Source: an uncultured Pelagibacteraceae bacterium (lineage in GTDB: Bacteria > Pseudomonadota > Alphaproteobacteria > Pelagibacterales > Pelagibacteraceae). From it: 60,042 bases of DNA. The DNA is taken from assembly GCA_902588835.1 (NCBI GenBank), contig CACIQQ010000008.1:1-60042 (forward strand), read 5' to 3'. Positions 3,469-60,042 of this stretch are shown one piece after another (the first letter of the stretch is position 1; every line of letters begins with the position of its first letter). The notes below the pieces were generated by a model that searched no databases, was not told the DNA's origin, and saw only the letters and a list, made by a program, of their open reading frames with translations. Made by a program: the position numbers and the translations under genes.

Positions 3469-5157
3469 CTAAAAAAGTCCTTCAACTTCACCTTTTTTAT
3501 TTAGCTTAATATTATTAGCCGCAGGAACTTTGGGTAGACCAGGCATTGTCATAATAGATCCACAAACAACCACAATAAACTCAGCTCCAGATGATAATCT
3601 CACTTCTCTTATTGGAATTTCATGATTTGATGGAGCTCCTTTTAACTTAGGATCTGTTGAAAAACTATATTGGGTTTTAGCTATACAAACAGGTAAACTT
3701 TTGTAGCCGTTATTCTCAAAAACTTTTAGTTGATCTTTTACATCTTCATTTGCAGTAATTCCGTTACCTCTATAAATTTCTTTAACGATTTTTTCAATTT
3801 TATCCCAAAGATTTAAATTATCTTCATACAAAAACTTGAAATTATTTTTTTTTGACTCTTTACAAGTTTTGACAACTTTTTTGGCTAGATCAGTCGTTCC
3901 TTTGCCTCCCATCGCCCAGTGTTTACATTCACTAACCTGGATTTTCATATCTTTACAAAAATTAAGAACAACATTTATTTCTTTTTTTGTATCTAAGGCA
4001 AAATGGTTAATCGCTACGATTGGTTCTAGTCCAAATTTTTTAATATTTAAAATATGTCTTTCTAAATTGACTAAACCTTTTATCAAAGAGTTGGTATCTT
4101 CTTTTTTAAGATTTTCTTTTTCTACACCTCCATGCATCTTTAATGCTCTTATAGTTGCAACAATTACAACACAGCTAGGTTTTAATCCAGCCTTTCTACA
4201 TTTAATATCTAAAAATTTTTCAGCACCTAGATCTGCGCCAAATCCTGCCTCAGTTACAACGTAGTCTGATAGCTTAAGAGCTGCTGTTGTAGCAATTACA
4301 GAATTACAGCCATGAGCAATATTAGCAAATGGACCTCCATGAATAATAGCTGGGTTATGTTCTAAACTTTGAGTAACATTAGGTCTTATTGCTTCTTTTA
4401 AAAGAACGGTCATTGGCCCATGGGCATTTAAATCTTTTGCAAAAATTGCCTTTCCTTCTTTATTATAAGCAATAGTTATATTTCCAACTTTTTTTTCTAA
4501 ATCGTTTAAGTCTTTAGCCAAACAAAAAATAGCCATGACTTCTGAGGCAACAGTTATATCAAAACCATCTACTCTTTTATAATCCTTTGCAACACCACTA
4601 GTATTTATATCAATAAATCTCAAAGCACGGTCGTTCATATCCATTACTCTTTTCCAAACTATTCTTTTTTCATCGATATTTAGTTTGTTTCCCCAGTAGA
4701 TATGATTGTCAATCATTGCCGATAGCAAATTGTGTGCTGATGTGATTGCATGAAAGTCTCCAGTGAAATGAAGATTTATTTGTTCCATAGGTACAACTTG
4801 AGCATACCCACCGCCAGCTGCTCCTCCCTTCATACCAAAAGAAGGGCCAAGACTAGGTTCTCTGAGACAAACAATTGATTTCTTTCCAATTTTATTTAAA
4901 CCGTCATTTAAACCAACAGAGGTAGTAGTTTTACCTTCGCCAGCTGGAGTTGGAGTAATGGCTGTAACAAGAATAAGATGACCATCTTTTTTCTTCTTAA
5001 GTTTATTTAAAAAATTAAAATTTATTTTTGCTATATGTCTTCCCATAGGACTAAAGGCACCTGGGTTATCGGGAACATTTATTTTTTTTAAAATTTTTGA
5101 AATTGGTTTAAGTTTACAGCTTCTTGCTATTTCAATGTCAGATTTAAATTTTTTCAT
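3469..5157 (-). CDS. fhs: Formate-tetrahydrofolate ligase
   Basis: A 562-aa protein of the normal family length. It has the ATP-binding loop [15 protein letters not shown] (about residues 68-82) and the glycine-rich block [18 protein letters not shown], followed by the very conserved [16 protein letters not shown]. The enzyme joins formate to THF with ATP to make 10-formyl-THF, or runs in reverse to conserve ATP during C1 oxidation. In SAR11 it fits with the methyl-oxidising genes elsewhere in this window. It is divergently transcribed from the gene at 5254, with a 96-nt shared intergenic region. Confidence 0.97.
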
Positions 5158-16753: not shown

Positions 16754-17176
16754 ATGAATTTAAAAATAATTTTAATAATGGGTTTACCTGGCGCAGGCAA
16801 AACAACGCTTGCAGACGCACTTGCCAAAAAAATTAAAGCAAAAAGACTAAATGCTGATGAGGTTAGAAAAGAAGCAAATGACTGGGATTTTTCTGAGGAA
16901 GGAAGAAAAAGACAAGCAAAAAGAATGTCAGATTTTGCACTTAAACTAAAGAATGAGGGCAATAATGTTATTGCTGACTTTATATGTCCTACTCCTGAGG
17001 CACGTAAATTGTTTCCTGCAGACTATATAGTTTGGGTTGATACAATTAAGTCTGGAAGATTTGATGATACAAATAAAATGTTTGTAAAACCTGAAAAATT
17101 TGATTTTCATGTTACATCACAAAATGCTAAGGAATGGTCCGAGAAAATTTTTATAGATCTTAAAAAAAATGTATAA
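16754..17176 (+). CDS. APS-kinase-like P-loop kinase
   Basis: A 140-aa P-loop protein with Walker A GLPGAGKTT (about residues 10-18) and the CysC-like blocks LNADEVRK (D-x-x-x-R) and WDFSEEGRKRQAKRM. NVIADFICPTPEARKLF resembles the APS-kinase strand that ends in I-x-P. It is shorter than CysC (about 200 aa) and lacks the usual lid region, so it may phosphorylate something other than APS. It overlaps the next gene, a nucleotidyltransferase, by 8 nt, implying paired function. Confidence 0.75.
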   Translation: MNLKIILIMGLPGAGKTTLADALAKKIKAKRLNADEVRKEANDWDFSEEGRKRQAKRMSDFALKLKNEGNNVIADFICPTPEARKLFPADYIVWVDTIKSGRFDDTNKMFVKPEKFDFHVTSQNAKEWSEKIFIDLKKNV

Positions 17177-17540
17177 GTGGGATAATAAAAAACCAACAGC
17201 ACAAATGTTAGGAAGGTGGCAGCCTTTCCATGATGGACACTATGCTTTATTTGAAGAAATAATAAAAAAAACTGGTCAAGTCTGTATTCAAATACGAGAC
17301 GTGCAAGGCGTGGATGATAATCCATTTGATTTTGAAACAGTAAAAAAGAAAATTGAAGAAAGATTAAATCCAAAATATGAGGGAAGGTTTAAGATAGTGC
17401 TAGTCCCCAATATTACAAATATATGTTACGGGAGAGGAGTGGGCTATAAAATCGAGGAGATAGTATTAGACGAGGAAACACAAAAAATATCAGCAACTAA
17501 AATTAGAGCCAGAATGCGAGAAGATGGAGAGCTTAAATAA
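17169..17540 (+). CDS. Cytidylyltransferase/NadM-like nucleotidyltransferase
   Basis: A 123-aa protein with the adenylyl/cytidylyltransferase signature GRWQPFHDGH (about residues 15-24), where PFHxGH binds the triphosphate. A C-terminal ISATKIRARM matches the ISxTxIR motif. It would transfer AMP or CMP to a phosphorylated substrate. Lying 8 nt into the kinase gene, it may act on the kinase product. The substrate is unknown. Confidence 0.78.
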   Translation: MYKWDNKKPTAQMLGRWQPFHDGHYALFEEIIKKTGQVCIQIRDVQGVDDNPFDFETVKKKIEERLNPKYEGRFKIVLVPNITNICYGRGVGYKIEEIVLDEETQKISATKIRARMREDGELK

Positions 17541-47842: not shown

Positions 47843-49059
47843 GTTCAGAAAAATTTATTCAAAATAAACTAGCTCTGACGACATTGATTTGCGCGTGTGT
47901 AGTAGTTTTAATGTCTTTGAGTGTAAGACAAGTTTTTGGAATGTTTTTCATTGACTTTAATAATGATTTAGGAATTTCAAATACTGAATTTGGTTTAGCT
48001 ATAGGTATCCAAATGCTAGGTTGGGGACTATCTGGTCCAATTTTTGGAGTTCTCGCAGACAAATATGGAGGCCACAAATCAATTATCCTTGCATTTCTTT
48101 TTTACATCCTTGGAGTTTATTTTTTATATGCAGGCCCTAATACTGGGATTTACTTTCAAATCAGTTTAGGAGTTTTAATTGGTATTGGTTGTGGAGGTAC
48201 AGCAATTAGTATCCCAATGTCAATTGTTGGTAAACACTTTCCATTATCTAATAGAACAATTGCAATGAGCATGGTTACAGCTGTAGGTTCTTTTGGTTAT
48301 TTCCTTTCACCGCTTTTTACAAATTATTCCTTACAAAGTAATGGATGGGTAAATACCCTTTTTTATTTTATGATATTTTTATCTATAGGATTAATATTCG
48401 CTTATTTTGTTAGATCACCACAGCTAGATAAAACGAATGATGCTCACAATGATCAAGGATCTTTAGATGCTCTAAAAGAAGCATTTAGAAACAAAAGTTA
48501 TGTTTTGCTGGTTTCGGGATTCTTTGTATGTGGTTTTCATATTACTTTAGTTGGAACACATGTGCCTAAATATGTAGCAGACAGAGGTCTAGATGATTGG
48601 ACTGCAGCGATGATTTTATCTCTTATAGGTTTTTTTAATATCATAGGTTCTTTGTTAAGTGGCTATTTATCTACAAAGATGAGCAAAAAAATTATCTTAA
48701 GCTCTATTTATTTCTTAAGAGGTGTCTCAATTTGTTTTTTTATTTTCCTACCACCAAGTACTATTTCATCAATAATATTTGGTGCTAGCTTTGGTTTTTT
48801 ATGGTTATCCACTGTTCCAGCTACGAGTGGGATTGTGGCTCATATTTTTGGGACTAAGTATCTTGGCCTTTTATATGGTTTAGTTTTTTTAAGTCATCAA
48901 TTTGGATCTTTTTTTGGAGCATATCTTGGCGGACTTTTCTATGACATATATGGTTCTTATAACTATGCGTGGTATTTAGCAATTGCATTATCTATTTTTG
49001 CAGGCTTAATACACTTACCAATTAAAGAGCAAGCAATTGATAGATTACAAAAAGCATAA
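47839..49059 (+). CDS. MFS transporter
   Basis: A 406-aa 12-span major facilitator. The signature GVLADKYGGHKSI lies after helix 2 and SGYLSTKMSKK is its second-half copy. The general form is like bacterial oxalate/formate or sugar-acid carriers, but the substrate is not evident. It overlaps the MetC-like stop by 4 nt and the PabB-like start by 23 nt, so it may export or import a compound related to those genes. Confidence 0.9.
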   Translation: MSSEKFIQNKLALTTLICACVVVLMSLSVRQVFGMFFIDFNNDLGISNTEFGLAIGIQMLGWGLSGPIFGVLADKYGGHKSIILAFLFYILGVYFLYAGPNTGIYFQISLGVLIGIGCGGTAISIPMSIVGKHFPLSNRTIAMSMVTAVGSFGYFLSPLFTNYSLQSNGWVNTLFYFMIFLSIGLIFAYFVRSPQLDKTNDAHNDQGSLDALKEAFRNKSYVLLVSGFFVCGFHITLVGTHVPKYVADRGLDDWTAAMILSLIGFFNIIGSLLSGYLSTKMSKKIILSSIYFLRGVSICFFIFLPPSTISSIIFGASFGFLWLSTVPATSGIVAHIFGTKYLGLLYGLVFLSHQFGSFFGAYLGGLFYDIYGSYNYAWYLAIALSIFAGLIHLPIKEQAIDRLQKA

Positions 49060-50251
49060 ATCGAATTTTAGTCCTTATCTGGAGAAATTATATCAATCAG
49101 ATAAACCCATGGTCATCTATAAATATAAAGATGGATATAAAATATTTACAGATTTTTCAAAGAGGATAGTACTTAACAACTCAAACATAGAAAATTTTTT
49201 AAACAATATAACAAAAAAAAAATTTAGTAGGGAACAAGACCTTTATATAGGTTTTTTTGGCTATGAAATATTATGTAACTTGCTAAATATTAGAATTAAA
49301 AATCAAAAAAAGAATGGATTTTATAAGGGTCTTTTCTATAAACCAGAAACTATAATTACTTTATCAAAAAAAATTAAAATATCTTCAACACTAAAGAAAC
49401 AGAGTTTTAATTACCACTTTAATCAAACCAAAATATTAAAACCATTTAAAGTCAATATTAACTATGAAAAGTATAAAAGAATCTTCAATCTTTTTTCAAA
49501 AAAAATCAGAGCAGGTGAGACCTATCAAATAAAAATTTGCACAAAGTATAAAAATGAATCTGAGATAGATCCGGTCAGTTTTTTTTGGAAATTAATGAAG
49601 GCAAACTCCTCTCCCGAGGCCTTTATGATTAGAGACAAGAATTACTCTATTGTTAGTTGCTCTCCTGAAACTTTAATAGAAAAAAAGGGATTAAAGGTAA
49701 CAACGAAACCAATAGCCGGAACACTTAAAAAAAATCAAAAATTAAATAAATCTAAAGCTCTCAATTTCTTTAAGAACAATAATAAAGAGACAAAAGAACA
49801 TAATATGATTGTAGATATGGAGAGAAACGACTTATCAAAAATTTGTAAACCAGGAAGTGTAGTAATCAAAAGAAAAAAATATGTAGAGGAATATAAACAT
49901 TTGTATCACTACGTATCTACAATAGAGGGTAGATTAAAAAACAATATCAATCTTAAAAACATTATTAAATCGATGATGCCCGGTGGGTCTGTTATAGGTT
50001 GTCCAAAAATAAGAACACTCCAACTATTAAATAGTCAAGAAAAAGAGGGACGAAATATTTTTACAGGAAGTTTCGGATTTATTAAGTTTAATATGGATAT
50101 GCGGTTTAACATAATAATAAGATCAATTCTAAATTTCAAAAATATTTCAGAGATATCAGCAGCCTCAGGTGTTGTATTAGATAGTTCATCAAAAAAAGAA
50201 TTTAGTGAAAATTACATAAAAGCAAAATCATTATTGGAGTTATTTAAGTGA
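49037..50251 (+). CDS. pabB: Chorismate-utilising enzyme, PabB/TrpE type
   Basis: A 404-aa enzyme of the chorismate_bind family. TYQIKICTKY, SCSPETLIEKKGLKVTTKPIAG (PIAGT at 225-229), HNMIVDMERNDLSKICKPGS and MMPGGSVIGCPKIRTLQLL form the active site. The residue before Gly-Thr is Ala, as in anthranilate synthases; E. coli PabB has Lys in PIKGT. The neighbouring PabC-like gene favours PABA for folate, while the Ala favours anthranilate chemistry. The N-terminal half is unusually rich in Lys and Asn. Confidence 0.82.
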   Translation: MIDYKKHKSNFSPYLEKLYQSDKPMVIYKYKDGYKIFTDFSKRIVLNNSNIENFLNNITKKKFSREQDLYIGFFGYEILCNLLNIRIKNQKKNGFYKGLFYKPETIITLSKKIKISSTLKKQSFNYHFNQTKILKPFKVNINYEKYKRIFNLFSKKIRAGETYQIKICTKYKNESEIDPVSFFWKLMKANSSPEAFMIRDKNYSIVSCSPETLIEKKGLKVTTKPIAGTLKKNQKLNKSKALNFFKNNNKETKEHNMIVDMERNDLSKICKPGSVVIKRKKYVEEYKHLYHYVSTIEGRLKNNINLKNIIKSMMPGGSVIGCPKIRTLQLLNSQEKEGRNIFTGSFGFIKFNMDMRFNIIIRSILNFKNISEISAASGVVLDSSSKKEFSENYIKAKSLLELFK

Positions 50252-50808
50252 TATATATTATTGACCATCAAGATTCGTTTACATGGAATGTGGTTCATCA
50301 ATTTTCTCAATTTGATAAAGTTCATTGTTCCGATTATTTTGATATAAATAAAAAATTATTGAATAAATCAGATGTAATAGTTTTTTCTCCGGGCCCTGGT
50401 TCTCCAAAAGATTATCCAGAGACTTCAAAAATTTACAATAAATACAAGGGTAAAAAAAAAATGATTGGTATATGTTTAGGATTTCAGTTGATATTATACA
50501 ACGAAGGTGGAAAAATTAGACAACAAAATAAAATTTATCATGGTTATCAATCAAAAATTAAAGTCAATGGAAAAAGCAAAATTTTTAAAAAAAATAAAGT
50601 ATTTAATATTGGAAGATATCATTCGCTAAAGTTACATGAGCCGTATTTTTCAAAAAATCTCAATATCACAATGCGTTGTACAAAAACTAAAACAGCGATG
50701 GCTTTTGAGGATAATCTAAATAAAATTTATGGTTTTCAATTTCATCCTGACTCGTTCTTAACTGAAAATGGCAATTTTTTTATTAAAAAAATCTTATCAA
50801 GCAAATAA
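50248..50808 (+). CDS. pabA: Glutamine amidotransferase, PabA/TrpG type
   Basis: A 186-aa class I amidotransferase with GTG start (GTGA overlap with the previous stop). The oxyanion motif SPGPGSP and the nucleophile Cys76 in GICLGFQ are present. The triad His166 is in FQFHPDSF, but the usual Glu of H-P-E is Asp168. It supplies ammonia from glutamine to the PabB-like subunit. Confidence 0.87.
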   Translation: MIYIIDHQDSFTWNVVHQFSQFDKVHCSDYFDINKKLLNKSDVIVFSPGPGSPKDYPETSKIYNKYKGKKKMIGICLGFQLILYNEGGKIRQQNKIYHGYQSKIKVNGKSKIFKKNKVFNIGRYHSLKLHEPYFSKNLNITMRCTKTKTAMAFEDNLNKIYGFQFHPDSFLTENGNFFIKKILSSK

Positions 50809-51508
50809 TCAAAAAGAAATAGGATTCAAAGATTTATGGGGATCTTACGGAGTCTTTACTACTATAAGACTTTTTGGAAAACCTGGTAAGCTTATTTTAT
50901 TAAAAAGTCACATTAAGGGATTAATTAAATCTCTTAAAAAATATAAAATTTATTCAAAAAATATTGAGACAAATATTAAACATTTAATCAATTCAAGCAT
51001 TAATAAAAATATTAATTACGACCACTTATTTCGAATTGCTCTAACAAAAAAATTTATATCAATTTCTATTCGAAAAAGACTTAAACCAAAAAAGAATTTT
51101 GAACTTAAACTGATAAACTATAGAAGAATTGATCCTGAAACAAAAAATCTTTATTATAAGAAGATTTTAAAAGAATTGAATAAGTATGACCCAAGTAAAA
51201 TTGATATAGCTTTGGTCTATAAAGGAAAAATTTTAGAAACTTGTACTTCAAATATTTTATTTTTCAAAAATAGAGAGTTTTTTTCACCAAAAAATAATTG
51301 CTATATTGGAAATACAATTAACTATTTAAAAAGTAAGATTAAAATTTCATTTAAAGATATTAATTATAAAGATTTAAAAAAATTTGATGAAATAATGTTA
51401 ATAGGCTCGGGAAAAGGTGTGACACCTGTCAAGTATATCAAACAAATGAATTGGAAGAGTAAAAATAACTTTGGATATAAAAAAGTGAACAAATATTTGA
51501 ATTTTTAA
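50768..51508 (+). CDS. pabC: Aminotransferase class IV, PabC-like
   Basis: A 246-aa fold-type IV PLP protein, overlapping pabA by 41 nt; a later non-ATG start is possible. SYGVFTTIRLF at the N-terminus and GKILETCTSNILFFKNREFFSP match aminodeoxychorismate lyase and D-amino-acid aminotransferases. The Lys in KNLYYKKILKEL is the probable PLP base. It would release pyruvate from aminodeoxychorismate to form PABA. Confidence 0.8.
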   Translation: MAIFLLKKSYQANNQKEIGFKDLWGSYGVFTTIRLFGKPGKLILLKSHIKGLIKSLKKYKIYSKNIETNIKHLINSSINKNINYDHLFRIALTKKFISISIRKRLKPKKNFELKLINYRRIDPETKNLYYKKILKELNKYDPSKIDIALVYKGKILETCTSNILFFKNREFFSPKNNCYIGNTINYLKSKIKISFKDINYKDLKKFDEIMLIGSGKGVTPVKYIKQMNWKSKNNFGYKKVNKYLNF

Positions 51509-51513
51509 TCATT

Positions 51514-51918
51514 ATGAACGATCCAAATAATCCTTGTATATTCTGTAAGATTAATCAGAAAGAATTAATATTTGAAAATGATTATGCATATGCTTCTTCT
51601 GACAGTTATCCTGTTTCACAGTTACACTCATTAGTTGTTCCAAAGAGGTGTATCGAAAATTATTTTGAATTGGATGAAAAAGAAATCCTAGCTTGTAATG
51701 ATCTTATTAAAAAATTAAAAAAAAAAATAATGTCAGAAGATAAATCAGTTGAGGGTTTTAATATCGGAACAAATGCTGGAAAGGTTGCTGGCCAATCAAT
51801 ATTTCATTGTCATATACATGTGATTCCAAGAAGGAAAGGGGACGTGGATAATCCACAAGGTGGTGTAAGAAGCGTTATACCTTCAAAGCAACATTATACT
51901 CGAAAAATTAAAAAATAA
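51514..51918 (+). CDS. HIT-family hydrolase
   Basis: A 134-aa histidine-triad protein with the motif HCHIHVIPRRKGD and CIFCKINQ at the N-terminus, a zinc-binding Cys pair of many HIT proteins. It hydrolyses nucleotide phosphoramidates or dinucleotides. It lies 5 nt after pabC, but the link is likely incidental. Confidence 0.92.
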   Translation: MNDPNNPCIFCKINQKELIFENDYAYASSDSYPVSQLHSLVVPKRCIENYFELDEKEILACNDLIKKLKKKIMSEDKSVEGFNIGTNAGKVAGQSIFHCHIHVIPRRKGDVDNPQGGVRSVIPSKQHYTRKIKK

Positions 51919-52004: not shown

Positions 52005-52793
52005 ATGCTTACAACCAATCCATTTGCAATTTTAGCTGAAACAATTCCAATGATAGCAATTCAATCTTTTGTAATCATTATGGTCGGCTTAGTTATTTTA
52101 GGCACGGTATTGGATATGATACATAAAAAAAATGTTAAATATTTTTTCAATAATGCAAAAAAAGCAAAAAAATCGGCCAAAAGAGAGTTGAGAACAGGTG
52201 AAAGGTTGGCGGTTATTGGTAAAACAATAATTCATGATATCGGAACTACAGCAGAGCTAGGTTGGGGCAAAAGAAGAATTGCACATGTTTTAGGAATGTA
52301 TGGAACAATCCTTTTTTGGATTGGTTCTGCTGCAATGATATTTTTTTATACAGATTCTCAAACTCCAAACGTTTGGCCAATTCTTTGGCATGTCGGAGCA
52401 ATAATGACTTGTTTGGGTGGATACTGGTTTTGGCTTTTTTTAAGAGTAGATGTTGCAGCTGAAGCAAATTCGGTATTTAGAATAATTACTGCAGACTTAT
52501 TTGTTTTAGCACTCTTAGCTTCTGCTACTTTTGGTTTAATTTGGTCTTACTTACAGTTTAATCAAATGGTTGGATGGGACACTTTATTTCTAGTGCTTTT
52601 TGGGGTTTCAAATATAGTTTTATTTGGAGGCGTTTACTGGTCTAAGTTCGCTCACATGTTTTATAAACCTGGAGCAGCGATACAAAAAAATTTAGCTGAA
52701 GCTGATGGTTCAAGAGATAATCTTCCCCCACCAGCAGATGCGCCAGAACAGTTTGGGCTTGGCATAAAAAGAGAAGAGCCAAAACACTATTAA
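52005..52793 (+). CDS. aprM: AprM-like membrane anchor of APS reductase
   Basis: A 262-aa protein with about six hydrophobic helices (15-38, 91-115, 125-147, 160-182, 195-215). It precedes aprBA, as AprM does in sulfur-oxidising lineages, where it probably carries electrons between AprBA and the quinone pool. Family resemblance and position are the basis. The C-terminal tail (PPPADAPEQFGLGIKRE) is hydrophilic. Confidence 0.82.
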   Translation: MLTTNPFAILAETIPMIAIQSFVIIMVGLVILGTVLDMIHKKNVKYFFNNAKKAKKSAKRELRTGERLAVIGKTIIHDIGTTAELGWGKRRIAHVLGMYGTILFWIGSAAMIFFYTDSQTPNVWPILWHVGAIMTCLGGYWFWLFLRVDVAAEANSVFRIITADLFVLALLASATFGLIWSYLQFNQMVGWDTLFLVLFGVSNIVLFGGVYWSKFAHMFYKPGAAIQKNLAEADGSRDNLPPPADAPEQFGLGIKREEPKHY

Positions 52794-52824
52794 TATGTTA
52801 GAATTTAAAAAGGAGATAAAATAA

Positions 52825-53295
52825 ATGTCAACATTTGTATACATGACTAGGTGCGATGGTTGTGGCCACTGTGTAGATATCTGTCCTTCAGATATCATGC
52901 ATATAGATAAAAATATTAGAAGAGCAAAAAACATTGAACCAAATTTTTGTTGGGAATGTTATTCTTGTGTTAAAGCGTGTCCTAATCATGCGATAGATGT
53001 AAGAGGCTATGCTGACTTTGCCCCGATGGGTCACAGTGTAAGAGTAAGAAGAGAAGAAGAAAAAGGAACGATTTCTTGGAAAATAAAATTCAGAAATGGA
53101 ACAGAAAAAGATTTTGTATCTCCGATAACAACAAAGCCTTGGGGAAAATTCATTCCAAAACTTGCTGATGGCGATAAACCTAATCAAGGAGAAATTAATT
53201 CTCAAATACTTTATAACGAACCTCACGGTTTAAATACTGATAAAGATCTTCCAACTTTAGATAAGAACTCCTTTAAAAAAGGAGTTTATTATTAA
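52825..53295 (+). CDS. aprB: Adenylylsulfate reductase subunit beta
   Basis: A 156-aa iron-sulfur protein with two [4Fe-4S] motifs, CDGCGHCVDICPSD (about 10-23) and CWECYSCVKACPNH. The C-terminal tail is the AprB-type extension that wraps AprA. A strong ribosome-binding site AAGGAG (52810-52815) lies before the ATG. Its stop overlaps aprA by 1 nt (TAATG). Confidence 0.97.
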   Translation: MSTFVYMTRCDGCGHCVDICPSDIMHIDKNIRRAKNIEPNFCWECYSCVKACPNHAIDVRGYADFAPMGHSVRVRREEEKGTISWKIKFRNGTEKDFVSPITTKPWGKFIPKLADGDKPNQGEINSQILYNEPHGLNTDKDLPTLDKNSFKKGVYY

Positions 53296-55154
53296 TGCCT
53301 AAAAATAAAACTGTCTTTGAAGATTGTGATGTACTAGTTGTTGGCGGTGGTATGGCTGGAACTGGTGCTACGTTTGAAGCTAGACATTGGGGAAGAAATT
53401 TAAAAATCATTTGTGTTGAAAAAGCAAATATTGATAGAAGTGGTGCAGTAGCTCAAGGACTTTATGCAATTAACTGTTACATGGGTATGCAGTGGGGAGA
53501 AAACCAGCCCGAAGATCATGTAAGATACGCTAGAAATGATTTAATGGGATTAGTTAGAGAAGATTTAGGTTATGACATGGCAAGACACGTTGACTCAACT
53601 GTTCATATGTTTGATGAATGGGGATTGCCTATGATGAAGAATAAAGAGACAGGCAGATACCAAAGAGAAGGTAAGTGGCAAATAATGATTCACGGTGAAA
53701 GTTATAAGCCGATCGTTGCTGAAGCTGCAAAAAAGTCAGCTGATAAAATTTACAATAGAATAATGATAACTCATCTTCTTAAAGATGAAGAAAATGAAAA
53801 TAGAGTTGCTGGAGCGGTTGGTTTTAATATGAGAACTGGTGATTATCATGTATTCAAAGCTAAAGCAGTAATTATAGCTGCAGGAGGGGCATCACATATA
53901 TTTAAACCCAGAGCAGTTGGTGAAGGTATGGGAAGAACTTGGTATGCACCATGGAGTAACGGCTCTGCTTACGCATTACCAATAGCAGCTGGTGCTAAGA
54001 TGACACAAATGGAAAATAGAATTGTGCTTTGCAGATTTAAAGATGGTTATGGTCCGGTTGGTGCTTATTTTTTACATTTAAAAACATATACGCAGAATGC
54101 TAACGGTGAAAATTATGAAAAAAAATGGTACGATGCCACAAAAAAACTTGTTGGTGAATATATAGATCATCATCCAACTCCAACTTGTTTAAGAAATCAT
54201 GCATTCATTCAAGAAGTAGCAGCAGGTGGTGGACCAATCCACATGGTAACTAAAGAAGCGTTTCAAGATCCTCATTTAGAAACTGTTGGATGGGAAAACT
54301 TTTTGGGTATGACAGTGGGTCAAGCTGTAGTTTGGGCATCACAAAACATAGATCCAAAGTATACTAATCCAGAATTAACAACTTCAGAGCCTTATGTGAT
54401 GGGTTCACACGCAACATGTTCAGGAGCATGGGTAAGTGGTCCAGAGGACATTGCACCAGATGATTATTTTTGGGGATATAACAGAATGATGTCTGTAGAT
54501 GGGTTATTTGGAGCAGGTGACACTGTTGGAGGAAGTGCTCACAAATTTTCATCAGGCTCTTTCACTGAAGGAAGATTGGCCGCGAAAGCTGCTGTTAAAT
54601 ACATTGAGGACAAAAAAGCCAATAACATTAAAGTGAGTGAGAAACAATATAGCGATTTAAAAGAGGTAATCTATAAACCTTTAGAAAATTATACAGTTGG
54701 AAGAAATGAAATAACTGGAGGTACAGTTTCACCAAGTTATATTTCACCTATACAAGGCCTACAAAGACTTCAAAAAATCATGGATGAATATTGTGGTGGT
54801 ATCACTAACAACTATATGACAAATGATAACCTTCTTAAAAAAGGTTTAGAATTATTAGATTGGCTTCAAGAGGACCTAGAAAATGTCGGGGCCGAGGATT
54901 ATCACCAGTTGATGAGAGCCTGGGAGTTGAAACATAGGGCTTTAACATCTCAATGTGTTACTGAACATACTTTATTTAGAGAGGAAACTCGTTGGCCAGG
55001 ATACTATTATAGAGGCGATCATATGAAATTAGATGATGAAAATTGGCATTGTTTGACAGTATCAAGAAGAGATCCTGAAACAGGTAAGTTCACAATGGAA
55101 AAAAAACCTGTTTATCACATAGTAGACGATAAAGAGAAAAAAAAGGCATCTTAA
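53295..55154 (+). CDS. aprA: Adenylylsulfate reductase subunit alpha
   Basis: A 619-aa flavoprotein, normal AprA length. The FAD loop VVGGGMAGTGATFEARHWG, DRSGAVAQGLYAINCYMGM and AGGASHIFKPRAVGEGMGRT are AprA hallmarks, with FGAGDTVGGSAHKFSSGSF near the C-terminus. With AprB it interconverts APS and sulfite plus AMP; in SAR11 it probably runs in the oxidative or sulfite-handling direction. The sulfite-releasing genes downstream fit that. Confidence 0.97.
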   Translation: MPKNKTVFEDCDVLVVGGGMAGTGATFEARHWGRNLKIICVEKANIDRSGAVAQGLYAINCYMGMQWGENQPEDHVRYARNDLMGLVREDLGYDMARHVDSTVHMFDEWGLPMMKNKETGRYQREGKWQIMIHGESYKPIVAEAAKKSADKIYNRIMITHLLKDEENENRVAGAVGFNMRTGDYHVFKAKAVIIAAGGASHIFKPRAVGEGMGRTWYAPWSNGSAYALPIAAGAKMTQMENRIVLCRFKDGYGPVGAYFLHLKTYTQNANGENYEKKWYDATKKLVGEYIDHHPTPTCLRNHAFIQEVAAGGGPIHMVTKEAFQDPHLETVGWENFLGMTVGQAVVWASQNIDPKYTNPELTTSEPYVMGSHATCSGAWVSGPEDIAPDDYFWGYNRMMSVDGLFGAGDTVGGSAHKFSSGSFTEGRLAAKAAVKYIEDKKANNIKVSEKQYSDLKEVIYKPLENYTVGRNEITGGTVSPSYISPIQGLQRLQKIMDEYCGGITNNYMTNDNLLKKGLELLDWLQEDLENVGAEDYHQLMRAWELKHRALTSQCVTEHTLFREETRWPGYYYRGDHMKLDDENWHCLTVSRRDPETGKFTMEKKPVYHIVDDKEKKKAS

Positions 55155-55169
55155 AAGGACTTCAAAAAT

Positions 55170-55520
55170 ATGAGCTTCACATCAAAGACTGATGATGAAA
55201 TTATAAAATTGGCTAATCCAATATGGTCAAATCTTATTAAGTCCTCAAATATGAAAGATTATGGAGGTTTTACCAGGGATTTTTCTTCACAAATGCTCTA
55301 TGGAGCAAATGAGGTTGAGCTAGGTAAGCAATGGGCTAGCAATAAATTGATCTCAAGTTTGACCGATAATTTCCAAGCTTTTGGTTGTTTAAGACGAGGG
55401 ATGCACGTAACGGTATTGTTTAAACAGACAAGCACTACAGAAGAGGGTGAGTTCTTAGGAAGACTTGTTCTTGGAGAAGAGGGCGGTGCTGTGAAGGTAT
55501 TTGGAGCAACTATTTTTTAA
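55170..55520 (+). CDS. Conserved hypothetical protein in the apr operon (116 aa)
   Basis: A 116-aa soluble protein with no signal or recognised domain. Two conserved-looking blocks are KDYGGFTRDFSSQMLYGAN and CLRRGMHVTVLFKQTSTTEE. AAGGAC lies before its ATG, only 15 nt after aprA, so it is co-transcribed. It may be an accessory for AprBA or sulfite handling; no function is known to me. Confidence 0.65.
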   Translation: MSFTSKTDDEIIKLANPIWSNLIKSSNMKDYGGFTRDFSSQMLYGANEVELGKQWASNKLISSLTDNFQAFGCLRRGMHVTVLFKQTSTTEEGEFLGRLVLGEEGGAVKVFGATIF

Positions 55521-55562
55521 AAAATTCTTGCAAAGATCCTTATTAAGGTGTACTTGGTGAGT

Positions 55563-55712
55563 ATGCTTGAATATTTCCAAAAACACACAAACTCTTTCAA
55601 GCACATATTTAACTTAAAAATTATATCAAATTTAAATACTAAAATTGCTCTTTATATAGGTTTAGCAGCATACTGGGTAGTAATGTTATCTAGTACTTTT
55701 TTTGGATTCTAA
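55563..55712 (+). CDS. Small single-span membrane protein (49 aa), apr-linked
   Basis: An ATG at 55563 opens 49 codons with a polar N-terminal part (about 1-26) and a hydrophobic helix near the end (LYIGLAAYWVVMLSSTFF). In-frame GTG codons just upstream are possible alternative starts. It lies 42 nt after the 116-aa gene and 46 nt before TauE/SafE. It may be a membrane accessory; unknown. Confidence 0.45.
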   Translation: MLEYFQKHTNSFKHIFNLKIISNLNTKIALYIGLAAYWVVMLSSTFFGF

Positions 55713-55758
55713 ATATCAAACAGTTGACTTTAATAATTTTGAGGAATAATTAATCCTA

Positions 55759-56856
55759 ATGGAGTTCTTTCTTCCTATTGCAGAAGTAAATGTAAGCTTA
55801 CCTTTTATCTTTTTTTTAAGTTTAGTTGTTGGAATTTTATCAGGTTTATTTGGTGTTGGTGGTGGTTTTTTGATGACCCCTTTCTTAATTTTTTTAGGAA
55901 TTCCACCAGCTTATGCAGTGCCAAACGAGGCTAATAATATTTTAGGTACATCTATATCAGGATCTACAACACATTATTTAAAAGGTACTCTCGATTATAA
56001 AATGGGTTTAATGATTGTAGTTGGTGGTGCAATGGGAACCATTTTAGGTATTTTAACTTTTACTTACTTTCAAGATATTGGAAAAATTAATATCGTTATT
56101 TCATTAGCATATATGTACATACTAGCTATCATCGGGACTATGATGCTGGTTCAAGGTGTTACAGAAATCGATAGAGCTAGAAAAAAAATTATTGTTAAAA
56201 AAAAATTACACGATCATAATTGGTTACAAGGTTTGCCTTTTAGAATGAGGTTTAAAAAATCTAAACTTTATGAAAGTGCTTTTACTCCAATTATCATGGG
56301 ATTTATTGTGGGTTATATAGCAGCTATACTTGGTGTTGGTGGAGCTTTTATACTTGTTCCTGCGATGATTTATATTATAGGAATGCCCACTAAATTAATT
56401 CCTGGAACTTCTTTATTTGTAACAATATTTATAAGTGCAATAGTTACTATCCTGCATGCATTTAACTACGGAACAATCGACTTAATATTAGTTACAGTTT
56501 TAATTTTAGGCTCTATACTTGGAGTTCAAATAGGCCAAAAGATTGGTGAAAAAGTTGATAGCTCTCAGTTTAAAACTATTTTAGCAATGCTTTTGTTATT
56601 AGTTGGGATAGCAATAGCGTACGATACTTTCTTTGTAGAAGAGGTAATTAAAGAGACATCAAATAACGGATCTAAAACATTAGGACCAATCTCTCAATTT
56701 GTAAGAGACTTATCCAAAAATGTTCCAGTTCTTTATGGATTGTTCTCAATTGTTTTAGCCCTTGTATTGGGTGTTGGTGCGGCAATTTTGAGAAGGTTTT
56801 TATCAAATCTTAAAAAGAAGTTTGTATACACAGCTCCACCTGGTTCACAAAAGTAG
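55759..56856 (+). CDS. TauE/SafE-family sulfite exporter
   Basis: A 365-aa protein with two homologous halves of about four helices each. GILSGLFGVGGGFLMTPFLIF and the second copy GYIAAILGVGGAFILVPAMI are the TauE signature. A cytoplasmic loop (about 125-175) joins the halves. It probably exports sulfite or sulfoacetate-type anions, matching its place between aprBA and the sulfonate genes. Confidence 0.92.
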   Translation: MEFFLPIAEVNVSLPFIFFLSLVVGILSGLFGVGGGFLMTPFLIFLGIPPAYAVPNEANNILGTSISGSTTHYLKGTLDYKMGLMIVVGGAMGTILGILTFTYFQDIGKINIVISLAYMYILAIIGTMMLVQGVTEIDRARKKIIVKKKLHDHNWLQGLPFRMRFKKSKLYESAFTPIIMGFIVGYIAAILGVGGAFILVPAMIYIIGMPTKLIPGTSLFVTIFISAIVTILHAFNYGTIDLILVTVLILGSILGVQIGQKIGEKVDSSQFKTILAMLLLLVGIAIAYDTFFVEEVIKETSNNGSKTLGPISQFVRDLSKNVPVLYGLFSIVLALVLGVGAAILRRFLSNLKKKFVYTAPPGSQK

Positions 56857-56892
56857 TTTATTTTTTTAAAATTTATTATAAAGTTTAGTTAA

Positions 56893-57261
56893 ATGAAAAA
56901 GTTATTTCTTTTACTATTAATTATATTCCCAATTAATTTTGCTGTAGCTGAAAAACAAACAACATTTAATAATGATGTTTTTAACAAAGCTCAATCAGAT
57001 GGAAAGACTGTAGTTGTAAGTTCATGGATTAAATATTGCACATCATGTGCGAGTCAAATGAAGGCATTGAAAGATGTTGAAAAAGATTTTGATAATTTAA
57101 TTTATCTTACATTTGATGTTACAAATAGGGAAATTGCCAAACAATTGAATATTCAATTCCAAACTACGCTTGTAATTTATAAAAACAATAAAGAAGTCTA
57201 TCGAAGTTTGGGTGAGTTAACCAAAGATAAAATTTATAAAGCTATAAATTCTGTAATTTAA
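56893..57261 (+). CDS. Exported thioredoxin-like protein
   Basis: A 122-aa protein with a signal peptide (MKKLFLLLLIIFPINFAVA) and a thioredoxin-like domain of the DsbD C-terminal type, active site CTSC in KYCTSCASQMKAL. It may reduce disulfides in the periplasm. It ends next to the convergent suyB-like gene. A role in sulfite/sulfonate handling is possible from position only. Confidence 0.8.
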   Translation: MKKLFLLLLIIFPINFAVAEKQTTFNNDVFNKAQSDGKTVVVSSWIKYCTSCASQMKALKDVEKDFDNLIYLTFDVTNREIAKQLNIQFQTTLVIYKNNKEVYRSLGELTKDKIYKAINSVI

Positions 57262-58428
57262 TTAGGCACTTCTGTACAACTTAGTCATGACGAACTCTTT
57301 ATGGCCTAGTGCTTCAGCACAGGTTAGTCTTCCATTTGCAACTTTAATAGTAGATTTAATTAATTCATCACCAGCTTGATCAAGATTCATTTCTCTTGAT
57401 AGTATTTTTGAAACATCTACATCAATATGTTCACTCATAGTTTTTGCTGTTAATGGATTAGCTGTAAGCTTTATTACTGGCTCAATAGGATTTCCGATTA
57501 TGTTTCCTTGACCAGTTGGGAATAAATGAATGTTAAAACCTCCGGCAGCTTGAAGAGTAACACACTCAGCAGCAGCTGATGATGTGTCCATAAAATATAA
57601 TCCTTTTCCTTTAGTAGGTTCTTCAGCTGGTTCTAATACATCTATAAATTTTCTTGAGCCTATTTTTTGAAAATTTCCAAAAGCCTTTTCTTCAATTGTT
57701 GTGAGACCCCCAGCAATATTTCCAGCTGTTGGTTGACTTTCTGATAAATCATTTGTTGCTTCTTTTAATATAAAGTCATTGTATGAACTCCAAGTTTTCA
57801 TAAATTTATCTTGAGCTTCTTTTGTTTTACCTCTTTTTGCACATACCGTTTCAGCCCCTGTAAGTTCTGATGTCTCACCAAAACACAAATGAACTCCTAA
57901 CGGTTCAAGTTTATCCATTAAATTTCCTACAGTCGGGTTTGAAGCAAGCCCTGAAGTTGTATCTGACTCTCCACATTTTACTGATATCCACAAATCACTT
58001 ATGGGACATTCCTCTCTTTGTTTTTCAGAAGCCCACATTGAAAATTCTTGAGCTTTTTTTGAAACTTTTGCAATCGTATCGATATCTCCAACACCTTCTA
58101 TACTAAAACCTTCTACTGGTTTTCCAGTTTTAGCAATTGCATCAACAATTCTTTTGGTCCATTTAGGTTCAATGCCAATTACAATTACTGCAGCTACATT
58201 TGGATTTCTTCCTGTTCCAATCATTGTCCTAAAATGAAGCTCCAAGTCTGCTCCAAATTGTAATCTTCCGTAAGAATGCGGAAGTGCAATTGTCCCTTTA
58301 ATATTATTAGCTACTGCTTCAGCACATGCATTTGAAATGTCATCTACCGGAAGAATAATTACATGATTTCTTGTTCCGGCTCTGCCATTTTCTCTTTTAA
58401 AACCTAAAAAACTTTTTGGAATTTGCAT
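57262..58428 (-). CDS. suyB: Sulfolactate sulfo-lyase large subunit-like (UxaA-C family)
   Basis: A 388-aa member of the altronate/galactarate dehydratase C-terminal family. [41 protein letters not shown] and [20 protein letters not shown] are the family blocks, with several Cys for the Fe-S cluster. A small SAF subunit encoded 1 nt upstream and xsc on the other side point to SuyB, which releases sulfite from sulfolactate with pyruvate as the carbon product. Sugar-acid dehydratase activity remains the alternative. Confidence 0.83.
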
Positions 58429-58429
58429 A

Positions 58430-58717
58430 TTACCACTTTTTTGTTTTTACGTTATGAACGTGAACGTGGTCGCCTTTTTTTATAGACTTAATTACTTTAC
58501 CTATATCATGTCCATACTTAATTATAGTGTCACCCTCCTTAAGATCTTCTAATGCTATTTTGTGACCTAGGGGTATTTCTGCCTCAGATTTTACTTTAGA
58601 TGAGGAGTCGTCTTCCATTATCCAACATCCACAGTCTTGGCCCTTTGATACTTTTTCTATAACAATTACGCCAACATTGTCTTTTTTATCATGAATAATT
58701 ATATCTGTTTTAGCCAT
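58430..58717 (-). CDS. suyA: Sulfolactate sulfo-lyase small subunit-like (SAF domain)
   Basis: A 95-aa SAF-domain protein, the size of Suy[23 protein letters not shown] and [13 protein letters not shown] are the family blocks. It pairs with the large subunit 1 nt downstream. Its start is 80 nt from the divergent xsc start, and the gap carries an inverted repeat. The assignment as SuyA rests on this context. Confidence 0.82.
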
Positions 58718-58726
58718 TGTGACGAT

Positions 58727-58750
58727 TTCTTAGTAGAAACTTGCTAAGAA
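58727..58750. promoter_or_regulatory. Inverted repeat between suyA-like and xsc
   Basis: TTCTTAG (58727-58733) and CTAAGAA (58744-58750) form a perfect 7-bp inverted repeat with a 10-nt spacer, in the 80-nt divergent region. It could be the operator of a regulator acting on both genes. No regulator gene is visible in the window nearby. Confidence 0.45.
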
Positions 58751-58797
58751 TTTATATATTAATCATGCGATTGCAAACAAAATTGTAAAGAATTTTT

Positions 58798-60042
58798 ATG
58801 ACCAAAATGACCACAGAAGAAGCTTTTATCAAAGTACTTCAAATGCATGGAGTTGAACACGCATTTGGAATTATTGGTTCTGCTTTTATGCCGATTTCAG
58901 ATTTATTTCCAAAAGCTGGAATAACTTTTTGGGATGTTGCCCACGAAACTAATGGAGGATTAATAGCAGATGGTTACACTCGAGCAACTGGAAAAATGTC
59001 AATGGTTATCGCTCAAAATGGCCCGGGCATCACAGGTCTAGTTACACCTATTAAAACAGCTTATTGGAACCATACACCTTTATTACTCGTAACACCTCAA
59101 GCTGCAAACAAAACAATGGGTCAGGGTGGTTTTCAAGAAGTAGAACAAATGAATTTATTTAAAGACATGGTCTGTTATCAAGAGGAGGTAAGAGATCCCT
59201 CTAGAATGGCTGAAGTTTTAAATAGAGTAATTGAAAAAGCTTTCAGAGGATCTGCACCAGCACAAATAAATGTTCCTAGAGATTACTGGACACAAGTTAT
59301 AGATATAGAGCTTCCTCCCATCGTAAGATTTGAAAGACAAGGTGGCGGAAAAGATGCAATTGAAAGAGCTTCAAGTTTATTATCAAAAGCAAAATTTCCT
59401 GTAATTCTATCAGGCGCAGGAGTTGTTATTGGTGGAGCGATAGAAGAATGCAAAAAATTAGCAGAGAAATTAGATGCACCAGTTTGTAATGGTTATCAAC
59501 ACAATGATAGTTTTCCTGGAAGCCATCCACTTGCTGTTGGACCTTTAGGTTACAATGGTTCAAAAGCAGCTATGGAACTTATTTCAAAGGCCGACGTTGT
59601 TTTAGCATTAGGAACAAGATTAAATCCCTTTTCTACTTTACCAGGTTATGGAATTGACTACTGGCCTAAAAATGCAACAATAATTCAAGTTGATATGAAC
59701 CCAGATAGAATAGGTTTAACTAAAAAAGTTACAGTAGGAATATGTGGTGATGCTAAACAGGTTGCCCAACAAATTTTAGATAAACTTTCATCTGATGCTG
59801 GTAATTCGGGTCGAGATGAGAGGAAAAATTTAATTCACAAAACTAAATCTGCTTGGCTACAAACTTTAGCTGGACTAGATCATGAAGAAGATGATCCAGG
59901 AACAGTCTGGAATAAAGAAGCAAGAGAAAGAGATAAAGATAGAATGTCTCCAAGACAAGCATGGAGAGCGATACAGGACGCACTACCTAAAGATGCAATA
60001 ATTTCGAGTGATATTGGAAACAATTGTGCAATCGGAAATGCT
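58798..60042 (+). CDS. xsc: Sulfoacetaldehyde acetyltransferase, 3' end cut by window edge
   Basis: A ThDP enzyme, 415 codons visible of about 590. KVLQMHGVEHAFGIIGSAFM, DLFPKAGITFWDVAHETNGG, AQNGPGITGL and LVTPQAANKTMGQGGFQE match Xsc almost residue by residue, distinguishing it from acetolactate synthase. It converts sulfoacetaldehyde and phosphate to acetyl phosphate and sulfite. ATG 58798 or 58807 may be the start. A downstream phosphate acetyltransferase would be expected outside the window. Confidence 0.95.
   Translation, partial: MTKMTTEEAFIKVLQMHGVEHAFGIIGSAFMPISDLFPKAGITFWDVAHETNGGLIADGYTRATGKMSMVIAQNGPGITGLVTPIKTAYWNHTPLLLVTPQAANKTMGQGGFQEVEQMNLFKDMVCYQEEVRDPSRMAEVLNRVIEKAFRGSAPAQINVPRDYWTQVIDIELPPIVRFERQGGGKDAIERASSLLSKAKFPVILSGAGVVIGGAIEECKKLAEKLDAPVCNGYQHNDSFPGSHPLAVGPLGYNGSKAAMELISKADVVLALGTRLNPFSTLPGYGIDYWPKNATIIQVDMNPDRIGLTKKVTVGICGDAKQVAQQILDKLSSDAGNSGRDERKNLIHKTKSAWLQTLAGLDHEEDDPGTVWNKEARERDKDRMSPRQAWRAIQDALPKDAIISSDIGNNCAIGNA

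Follow-up and report, generated by a model that had tools for sequence, protein, structure and literature searches.

Genes that release sulfite from organosulfonates and genes that remove it have been described in several arrangements. In SAR11 bacteria, aprAB, suyAB and xsc are core or near-core genes of the Pelagibacteraceae with sulfite removal as the proposed role (PMC12636525), and a detoxification role was given to AprBA (PMC5069961). AprBA with the membrane protein AprM is the lineage-I type described for sulfur oxidisers, with sat adjoining in Allochromatium vinosum (PMC2211403, PMC3779200). Related systems are the hps/slc-suyAB-exporter clusters of Paracoccus, Rhodobacteraceae SC52 and Cupriavidus, and the taurine route Tpa-Ald-Xsc-Pta. 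Here, we describe an island at positions 52005–60042 of a stretch of 60,042 nucleotides (the window, contig CACIQQ010000008.1) from an uncultured Pelagibacteraceae bacterium, in which aprM-aprB-aprA, an exporter gene, a suyBA pair and xsc stand together. Its genes and their proposed role are those published for SAR11. We read it as the island of a SAR11-type bacterium for sulfonate desulfonation and sulfite disposal, with a probability of about 70%.

Gene content and conserved order

The window is an entire contig (C8). The genome has 25 contigs with 967,393 bases together and is 86.6% complete. Its size, its G+C, its gene content and the agreement with published traits suggest SAR11. In the following, L numbers denote loci or stretches, G numbers genomes, g5 a genus, and f2 and f149 families, f2 belonging to the same order.

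An earlier note on this DNA had listed aprM-aprB-aprA, TauE/SafE, suyBA-like genes and xsc. All were recovered at their places, and AprB, AprA, Xsc and TauE passed their family cut-offs. On the plus strand, the gene for an aprM-like membrane protein (52005–52793) is followed by aprB (52825–53295; TIGR02060, 188.7 bits, cut-off 135.65) and aprA (53295–55154; TIGR02061, 993.1 bits, cut-off 641.75). Then come orf116 (55170–55520), the gene of a TauE/SafE-family exporter (55759–56856; PF01925, 152.9 bits, cut-off 32.6) and a thioredoxin-like gene in a variable slot (56893–57261; PF00085, 38.8 bits). The genes for the large subunit of (R)-sulfolactate sulfo-lyase (suyB-like, 57262–58428; PF20629 and PF04295) and the small subunit (suyA-like, 58430–58717) lie on the minus strand, separated by one base. 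The plus-strand gene xsc (58798–60042) diverges from them across 80 intergenic bases (58718–58797). It is truncated because the contig ends at base 60042, and even with only 415 amino acids present Xsc reached the TIGR03457 equivalog cut-off (687.3 vs. 676.4 bits). AprM had no Pfam or NCBIfam match at E 0.001; it was named from its position before aprBA, here and in relatives, and from its similarity to the gene in that position in relatives. Three genes come in addition to those of the earlier note: orf116, the thioredoxin-like gene and, just upstream, the gene of a HIT-family protein.

Of 20 neighbourhoods from relatives, 19 retained the order aprM-aprB-aprA-orf116-tauE with suyBA and xsc after it. 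The sole exception (L050) is a 5.6-kb contig carrying suyAB without apr. The gene order is more than chance. The slot between tauE and suyB held a YeiH-type exporter gene in eight of the 19 relatives, a thioredoxin-like gene in three and a HIT gene in two, and was empty in six. We take the YeiH-type exporter to be the one called SuyZ.

The genes downstream of xsc (L033–L052) vary among relatives and by eye encode sulfotransferase-like, glycosyl or membrane proteins and oxidases. The island therefore borders a variable region. A second apr-xsc link was seen in an alphaproteobacterium (G482) with an AprA 52% identical, where aprB-aprA, a YkgJ-like open reading frame (ORF), a HIT gene and xsc are consecutive (L138, 5366–11187).

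The suyAB pair and the supply of sulfonates

The plasmid search with SuyB matched 316 records, 13 of them in the 60–80% identity band; those listed were 60.3–70.1% identical and the next listed 39.8%. A tree was calculated from 24 chosen rows, drawn from these records and 124 genomes of the order. The SAR11-type proteins fell inside a clade of 15 rows with a support of 100/100, together with SuyB-like proteins and apart from AltD, GarD and UxaA, whose outgroup branches were long. Nine rows of the clade were non-SAR11. Seven of them are annotated records, and all seven sit in sulfonate-type clusters with sulfonate dehydrogenase or exporter genes adjoining; the other two carry no annotation. The earlier note had named altronate and galactarate dehydratases as the grouping that would speak against its SuyAB-like pair, and the pair did not group with them.

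The neighbours of close relatives agreed with the tree. TRAP, HisD-like, SDR and ADH genes stand beside the close suyAB pair in Rhodobacteraceae SC52 and Paracoccus seriniphilus, and an exporter adjoins the close SuyB in Paracoccus and SC52. Cupriavidus pinatubonensis has annotated hpsN and hpsO near its pair, and other close SuyB records have an Ldh or hydroxyacid dehydrogenase, an exporter or both. In L050, a more distant relative, suyAB is accompanied by genes for a D-hydroxyacid dehydrogenase, an Ldh_2 protein and phosphate acetyltransferase.

Judged by the Pfam names of its domains alone, the UxaA-family pair could be a sugar-acid dehydratase unrelated to sulfonates. The tree and the neighbours of close relatives contradict this. 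Moreover, both subunits (162.6 bits for the large one, 40.2 for the small one) stayed far below the galactarate dehydratase cut-off of 730.85. The small subunit of 95 amino acids had no Pfam family match; it showed a weak galactarate dehydratase N-terminal match and is paired with suyB in relatives. We consider a sugar-acid dehydratase highly improbable. The pair is SuyAB, with a predicted sulfo-lyase activity. It resembles the hps/slc-suyAB-exporter clusters in a SuyB 60–70% identical, and in several of these an exporter is beside the pair. In contrast to them, the dehydrogenases are here on another contig and the neighbours are aprMBA-tauE-xsc.

This other contig (C7) of the same genome carries, within 12 kb, genes for a HisD-like (HpsN-like) protein, Pta, an Ldh_2 (ComC-like) protein, TauC-/TauB-like ABC transporter proteins, a class-III aminotransferase and an alanine dehydrogenase. 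A gene without family assignment takes the binding-protein position of the ABC genes. The HisD-like protein was 57–61% identical to the HisD-like proteins of three hps clusters. Alanine dehydrogenase passed its cut-off, and Pta passed that of a phosphate acetyltransferase subfamily. The own genome encodes Pta, as do 45 of 61 genomes of the genus and all ten of high quality. Hence, of the genes that the earlier note wanted to see, pta is present. The importer and sulfoacetaldehyde-forming genes were recovered in part, with ABC genes below the taurine cut-offs and an aminotransferase that fits AptA. Xsc, Pta, alanine dehydrogenase, a class-III aminotransferase and ABC genes are shared with the taurine route, whereas the genes are spread over two contigs here and the aminotransferase fits AptA. 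SAR11 homologues of HpsO, HpsP and HpsN are reported to act on 2,3-dihydroxypropane-1-sulfonate (DHPS) in vitro with low affinity (PMC11131964). Taurine and DHPS are likely substrates. The roles of ComC and SlcC beyond PMC11131964 are our assumption.

In the proposed route, SuyAB would convert (R)-sulfolactate into pyruvate and sulfite. Xsc would convert sulfoacetaldehyde and phosphate into acetyl phosphate and sulfite, and Pta would lead on to acetyl-CoA. Sulfolactate may come from DHPS through the HpsN-like enzyme, and sulfoacetaldehyde from taurine through the transporter and aminotransferase of C7. Sulfite would leave through TauE or would be joined by AprBA with adenosine monophosphate (AMP) to adenosine 5'-phosphosulfate (APS). 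The electrons would pass through AprM to the quinone pool. Lower aprBA transcripts in sulfur-limited P. ubique (PMC5069961) agree with this reading.

Several points weigh against desulfonation and sulfite disposal as the function of the island. The C7 HisD-like protein also passed the histidinol dehydrogenase domain cut-off. The aminotransferase reached 574.6 bits with AptA (cut-off 500), which is not a taurine-pyruvate model, and the TauB, TauC and sulfolactate dehydrogenase models were matched below their cut-offs. The SuyB query matched 124 of 197 genomes of the order (three of them, G066, G149 and G195, solely through a paralogue of ~30% identity), and none of the 124 belonged to f2. In ten f2 apr neighbourhoods, nine of which include aprM, the stretches read had aprMBA-orf116 but none of tauE, suyAB and xsc. 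Therefore, the order as a whole does not couple apr to sulfonates, and the link is seen in the window's own family only. Finally, the own genome gave no match to ATP sulfurylase (PF01747); CysDN, SorAB and SoeABC were not searched in it. APS therefore lacks a known exit, and the oxidation would stop at APS unless another enzyme acts. Of the combined route suggested by the earlier note, the gene content and the points testable by sequence stood. A closed oxidation route was not supported, since the product of AprBA would be APS and the search for an ATP sulfurylase was negative.

AprMBA and the fate of APS

The AprB and AprA families preceded by aprM are the lineage-I aprMBA arrangement, as in sulfur oxidisers. 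The locus differs from theirs in that no sat was found, orf116 follows aprA and sulfonate lyases are linked in the window's family. In AprM, H94 and H217 were identical in 92 of 92 aligned rows and H40 in 91. The predicted model (pLDDT, a confidence score, of 83.5; fold alignment of the window protein and 34 of 53 listed copies) had EtfD and NarI as the nearest solved folds. For EtfD, Z was 10.4 with a root mean square deviation (rmsd) of 4.5 over 229 aligned residues; for NarI, Z was 9.3–9.8 with an rmsd of 6.1–6.5 over 172–182, and the next row had 7.8, where Z below 13 is weak for helical bundles. The modelled likeness, although weak, and the conserved histidines fit an entry of electrons into the quinone pool by AprM, which others had proposed earlier without a known fold.

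ATP sulfurylase was not found in any of the 61 genomes of the genus in one sample, and no PF01747 match was found in 187 of the 197 genomes of the order. Seven of the ten genomes with a match belong to the window's genus, and in G101 the match lies on the apr contig ~8 kb after aprA. Among these exceptions, L075 and L078 were inspected by eye. With the same model, Sat was detected in 19 of the 20 further alphaproteobacterial genomes that carry AprA (AprA 72–82% identical in 17 and 53–55% in three).

If APS has no exit, sulfite might mainly be exported, with AprMBA-orf116 reversed or only buffering sulfite. TauE here, a second exporter in eight of 19 relatives and the lack of a detected ATP sulfurylase favour this explanation. 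However, AprA and AprB go with lineage I of the sulfur oxidisers (PMC2211403), purifying selection on both is strong in SAR11 (PMC12636525), and no APS source for the reductive direction was found. We regard it as unlikely.

If AprMBA oxidises sulfite, APS has to be consumed. SAR11-type bacteria might complete the oxidation without Sat. In the window's genus, the HIT protein would hydrolyse or phosphorolyse the APS of AprMBA. In g5 and f2, the conversion into ATP and sulfate would fall to a miniature HxGH nucleotidyltransferase, which would act as a novel type of ATP sulfurylase and pair with an APS-kinase-like protein. This proposal is tentative, and we are rather doubtful of it. A slight preference goes to an ordinary enzyme: CysDN removing APS, or SorAB or SoeABC bypassing it, with the two candidates being mere neighbours. 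The genome searches did not cover these enzymes, sorAB is infrequent but present in SAR11 (PMC6018831), and Table 3 of PMC5069961 has cysN or cysD in a few strains. On the other hand, P. ubique was stated to lack sat and cysDNCHIJ, although a table of the same paper lists cysC (PMC5069961). This cysC may be the kinase at 16754–17176. Both candidates adjoin apr or suy in several different arrangements, which also argues against mere neighbourhood.

The HIT protein (51514–51918, plus strand) belongs to PF01230 (69.3 bits, cut-off 21.5). A HIT-superfamily ADP sulfurylase exists in Thiobacillus. Fhit-type HIT proteins release AMP from APS (PMC7072326, citing others). Among the matches listed, 101 of 109 genomes of the genus with AprA had the gene no more than 4 kb from aprA; G195 has HIT and AprA matches and no listed AprA place. 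It follows suyB by 8–14 bases in five of ten g5 genomes. The unrelated G482 has aprB-aprA-orf-HIT-xsc, and Sat is nearby. HIT proteins 44–53% identical were found in five of the 80 orf116 loci kept (L162, L173, L177, L179, L212) and one of 33% in L192, with no formal test of enrichment. Other observations speak against the HIT candidate. The gene starts 5 bases after pabC and therefore possibly belongs to the pab operon. Of ten HIT-subfamily neighbourhoods outside SAR11, L138 touches apr and xsc, L129 has xsc five ORFs off, and eight have no sulfur labels. A close HIT was not found in f2 in the search of the order genomes. The position after pabC and the eight neighbourhoods also favour an ordinary exit.

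Upstream of apr, the window has pabB-, pabA- and pabC-like genes (49037–51508). In g5 (L041, L046, L065–L067, L069–L071), a TENA/PqqC-type protein of 221–223 amino acids (PF03070, 94.9 bits) takes the pab place upstream of aprM. It recalls the CADD-type synthesis of p-aminobenzoate, and a swap of synthesis routes at one site is possible.

The second candidate is encoded on the plus strand at 17169–17540 (123 amino acids; PF01467, 23.4 bits, cut-off 21), beside an APS-kinase-like P-loop protein (16754–17176, plus strand; PF01583, 46.6 bits, cut-off 21.1). Among the matches listed, each of the ten g5 genomes has a homologue within 4 kb of aprA, and all 31 f2 genomes have one at a distance of at most 3 kb; in one of the two groups it lies upstream of aprM, in the other behind orf116. 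A PDB search returned only matches of the nicotinamide mononucleotide adenylyltransferase type (best E 0.006). In three haloarchaeal plasmids (L143–L145), a kinase annotated as cysC carries at its C-terminus a domain resembling the small nucleotidyltransferase, and its gene is flanked by a sulfotransferase gene and a YqcI/YcgG gene. This fusion is placed as if it made 3'-phosphoadenosine 5'-phosphosulfate. In one phage, a fused kinase-nucleotidyltransferase gene stands beside NADAR and methyltransferase genes.

The evidence against this candidate is broader. With PF01747, the window protein had no listed match and the g5 homologue reached 15.6 bits (cut-off 24.3). The nucleotidyltransferase is kept in six genomes of the genus without AprA (G064, G066, G126, G145, G146, G149), adjoins tauE in the apr-less relative L142 and occurs in kinase-fused forms in G173 and in g6 genomes without AprA. 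Relatives up to 92% identical were found in 366 stretches of marine viral contigs. In the 80 stretches kept (L227–L306), it was fused to an APS-kinase-like protein in 49, within 1 kb of one in 25 and without one in six. The AprA-less genomes, L142 and the frequency in viral contigs again favour an ordinary exit. As a dedicated apr partner, the nucleotidyltransferase was weakened by apr-less genomes, kinase fusions and viral spread, and it is kept as a conjecture only.

The companion orf116 and the meaning of the island

The 116-residue product of orf116 had no Pfam or NCBIfam match. The gene follows aprA in 39 of 39 neighbourhoods of the order with aprA. A profile scan of named genomes gave at least 557 confirmed relatives, and 80 loci were kept, including Thiobacillus, Sedimenticola and Magnetovibrio. 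In these loci, which were chosen by orf116, aprA immediately precedes 77 of the 79 labelled copies; of the other two, one lies at a contig edge and one elsewhere. When loci outside SAR11 were instead found through AprA, only two of 17 lineage-I-like ones had orf116. The model was confident (pLDDT 87.1; fold alignment of the window protein and 31 of the 34 copies of 115–118 amino acids, out of the 79 labelled). Foldseek gave a best E of 1.9e-3 and no match at 0.001 or below. In VIA, a designed protein came first (Z 11.1, rmsd 3.0, 103 aligned), then many NTF2-like rows. By its model, orf116 shares the NTF2-like superfamily fold, which shows no function. That it assists AprBA is a guess.

A replacement of Sat by orf116 was considered and dropped. 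The two first seemed exclusive at the locus, but both orf116-bearing f149 genomes have Sat ~14 kb from aprA, and Sat was within the stretch in 31 of the 80 loci.

Behind orf116 (L147, L149, L151–L154, L156–L163 and others), a same-strand ORF of more than 150 amino acids starts within 400 bases in 62 of the 80 loci. The printed ones are alike, FKBP/SlyD-like by eye, and the label is absent in SAR11. In L328, positions 4116–4847 were labelled as a presumed sulfur dioxygenase; the analysis itself gives a metallo-beta-lactamase fold.

The gene content and the idea of sulfite removal are already published for SAR11 (PMC12636525, PMC5069961). The available parts of these two papers do not describe the clustering, the placement of SuyAB in the tree, orf116 or the candidates for the APS step. 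In the open-licence literature, judged mostly from listings, we found no description of the clustering, orf116 or the APS-exit candidates, which is a weak statement. The module is real, conserved and mostly already described for SAR11, and SuyAB is now backed by a tree and by neighbours.

DHPS, sulfolactate and taurine are common sulfur compounds of plankton. If the SAR11 placement is right, the cells concerned rank with the most abundant of the ocean, and the island points to the source of their intracellular sulfite and to its possible fate. The missing ATP sulfurylase recasts an old puzzle, the strong purifying selection on AprBA of Pelagibacter beside an incomplete sulfate pathway, as an assay of two small proteins. 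With orf116 as a conserved apr companion outside the Pfam and NCBIfam families, both it and the APS step merit laboratory work.

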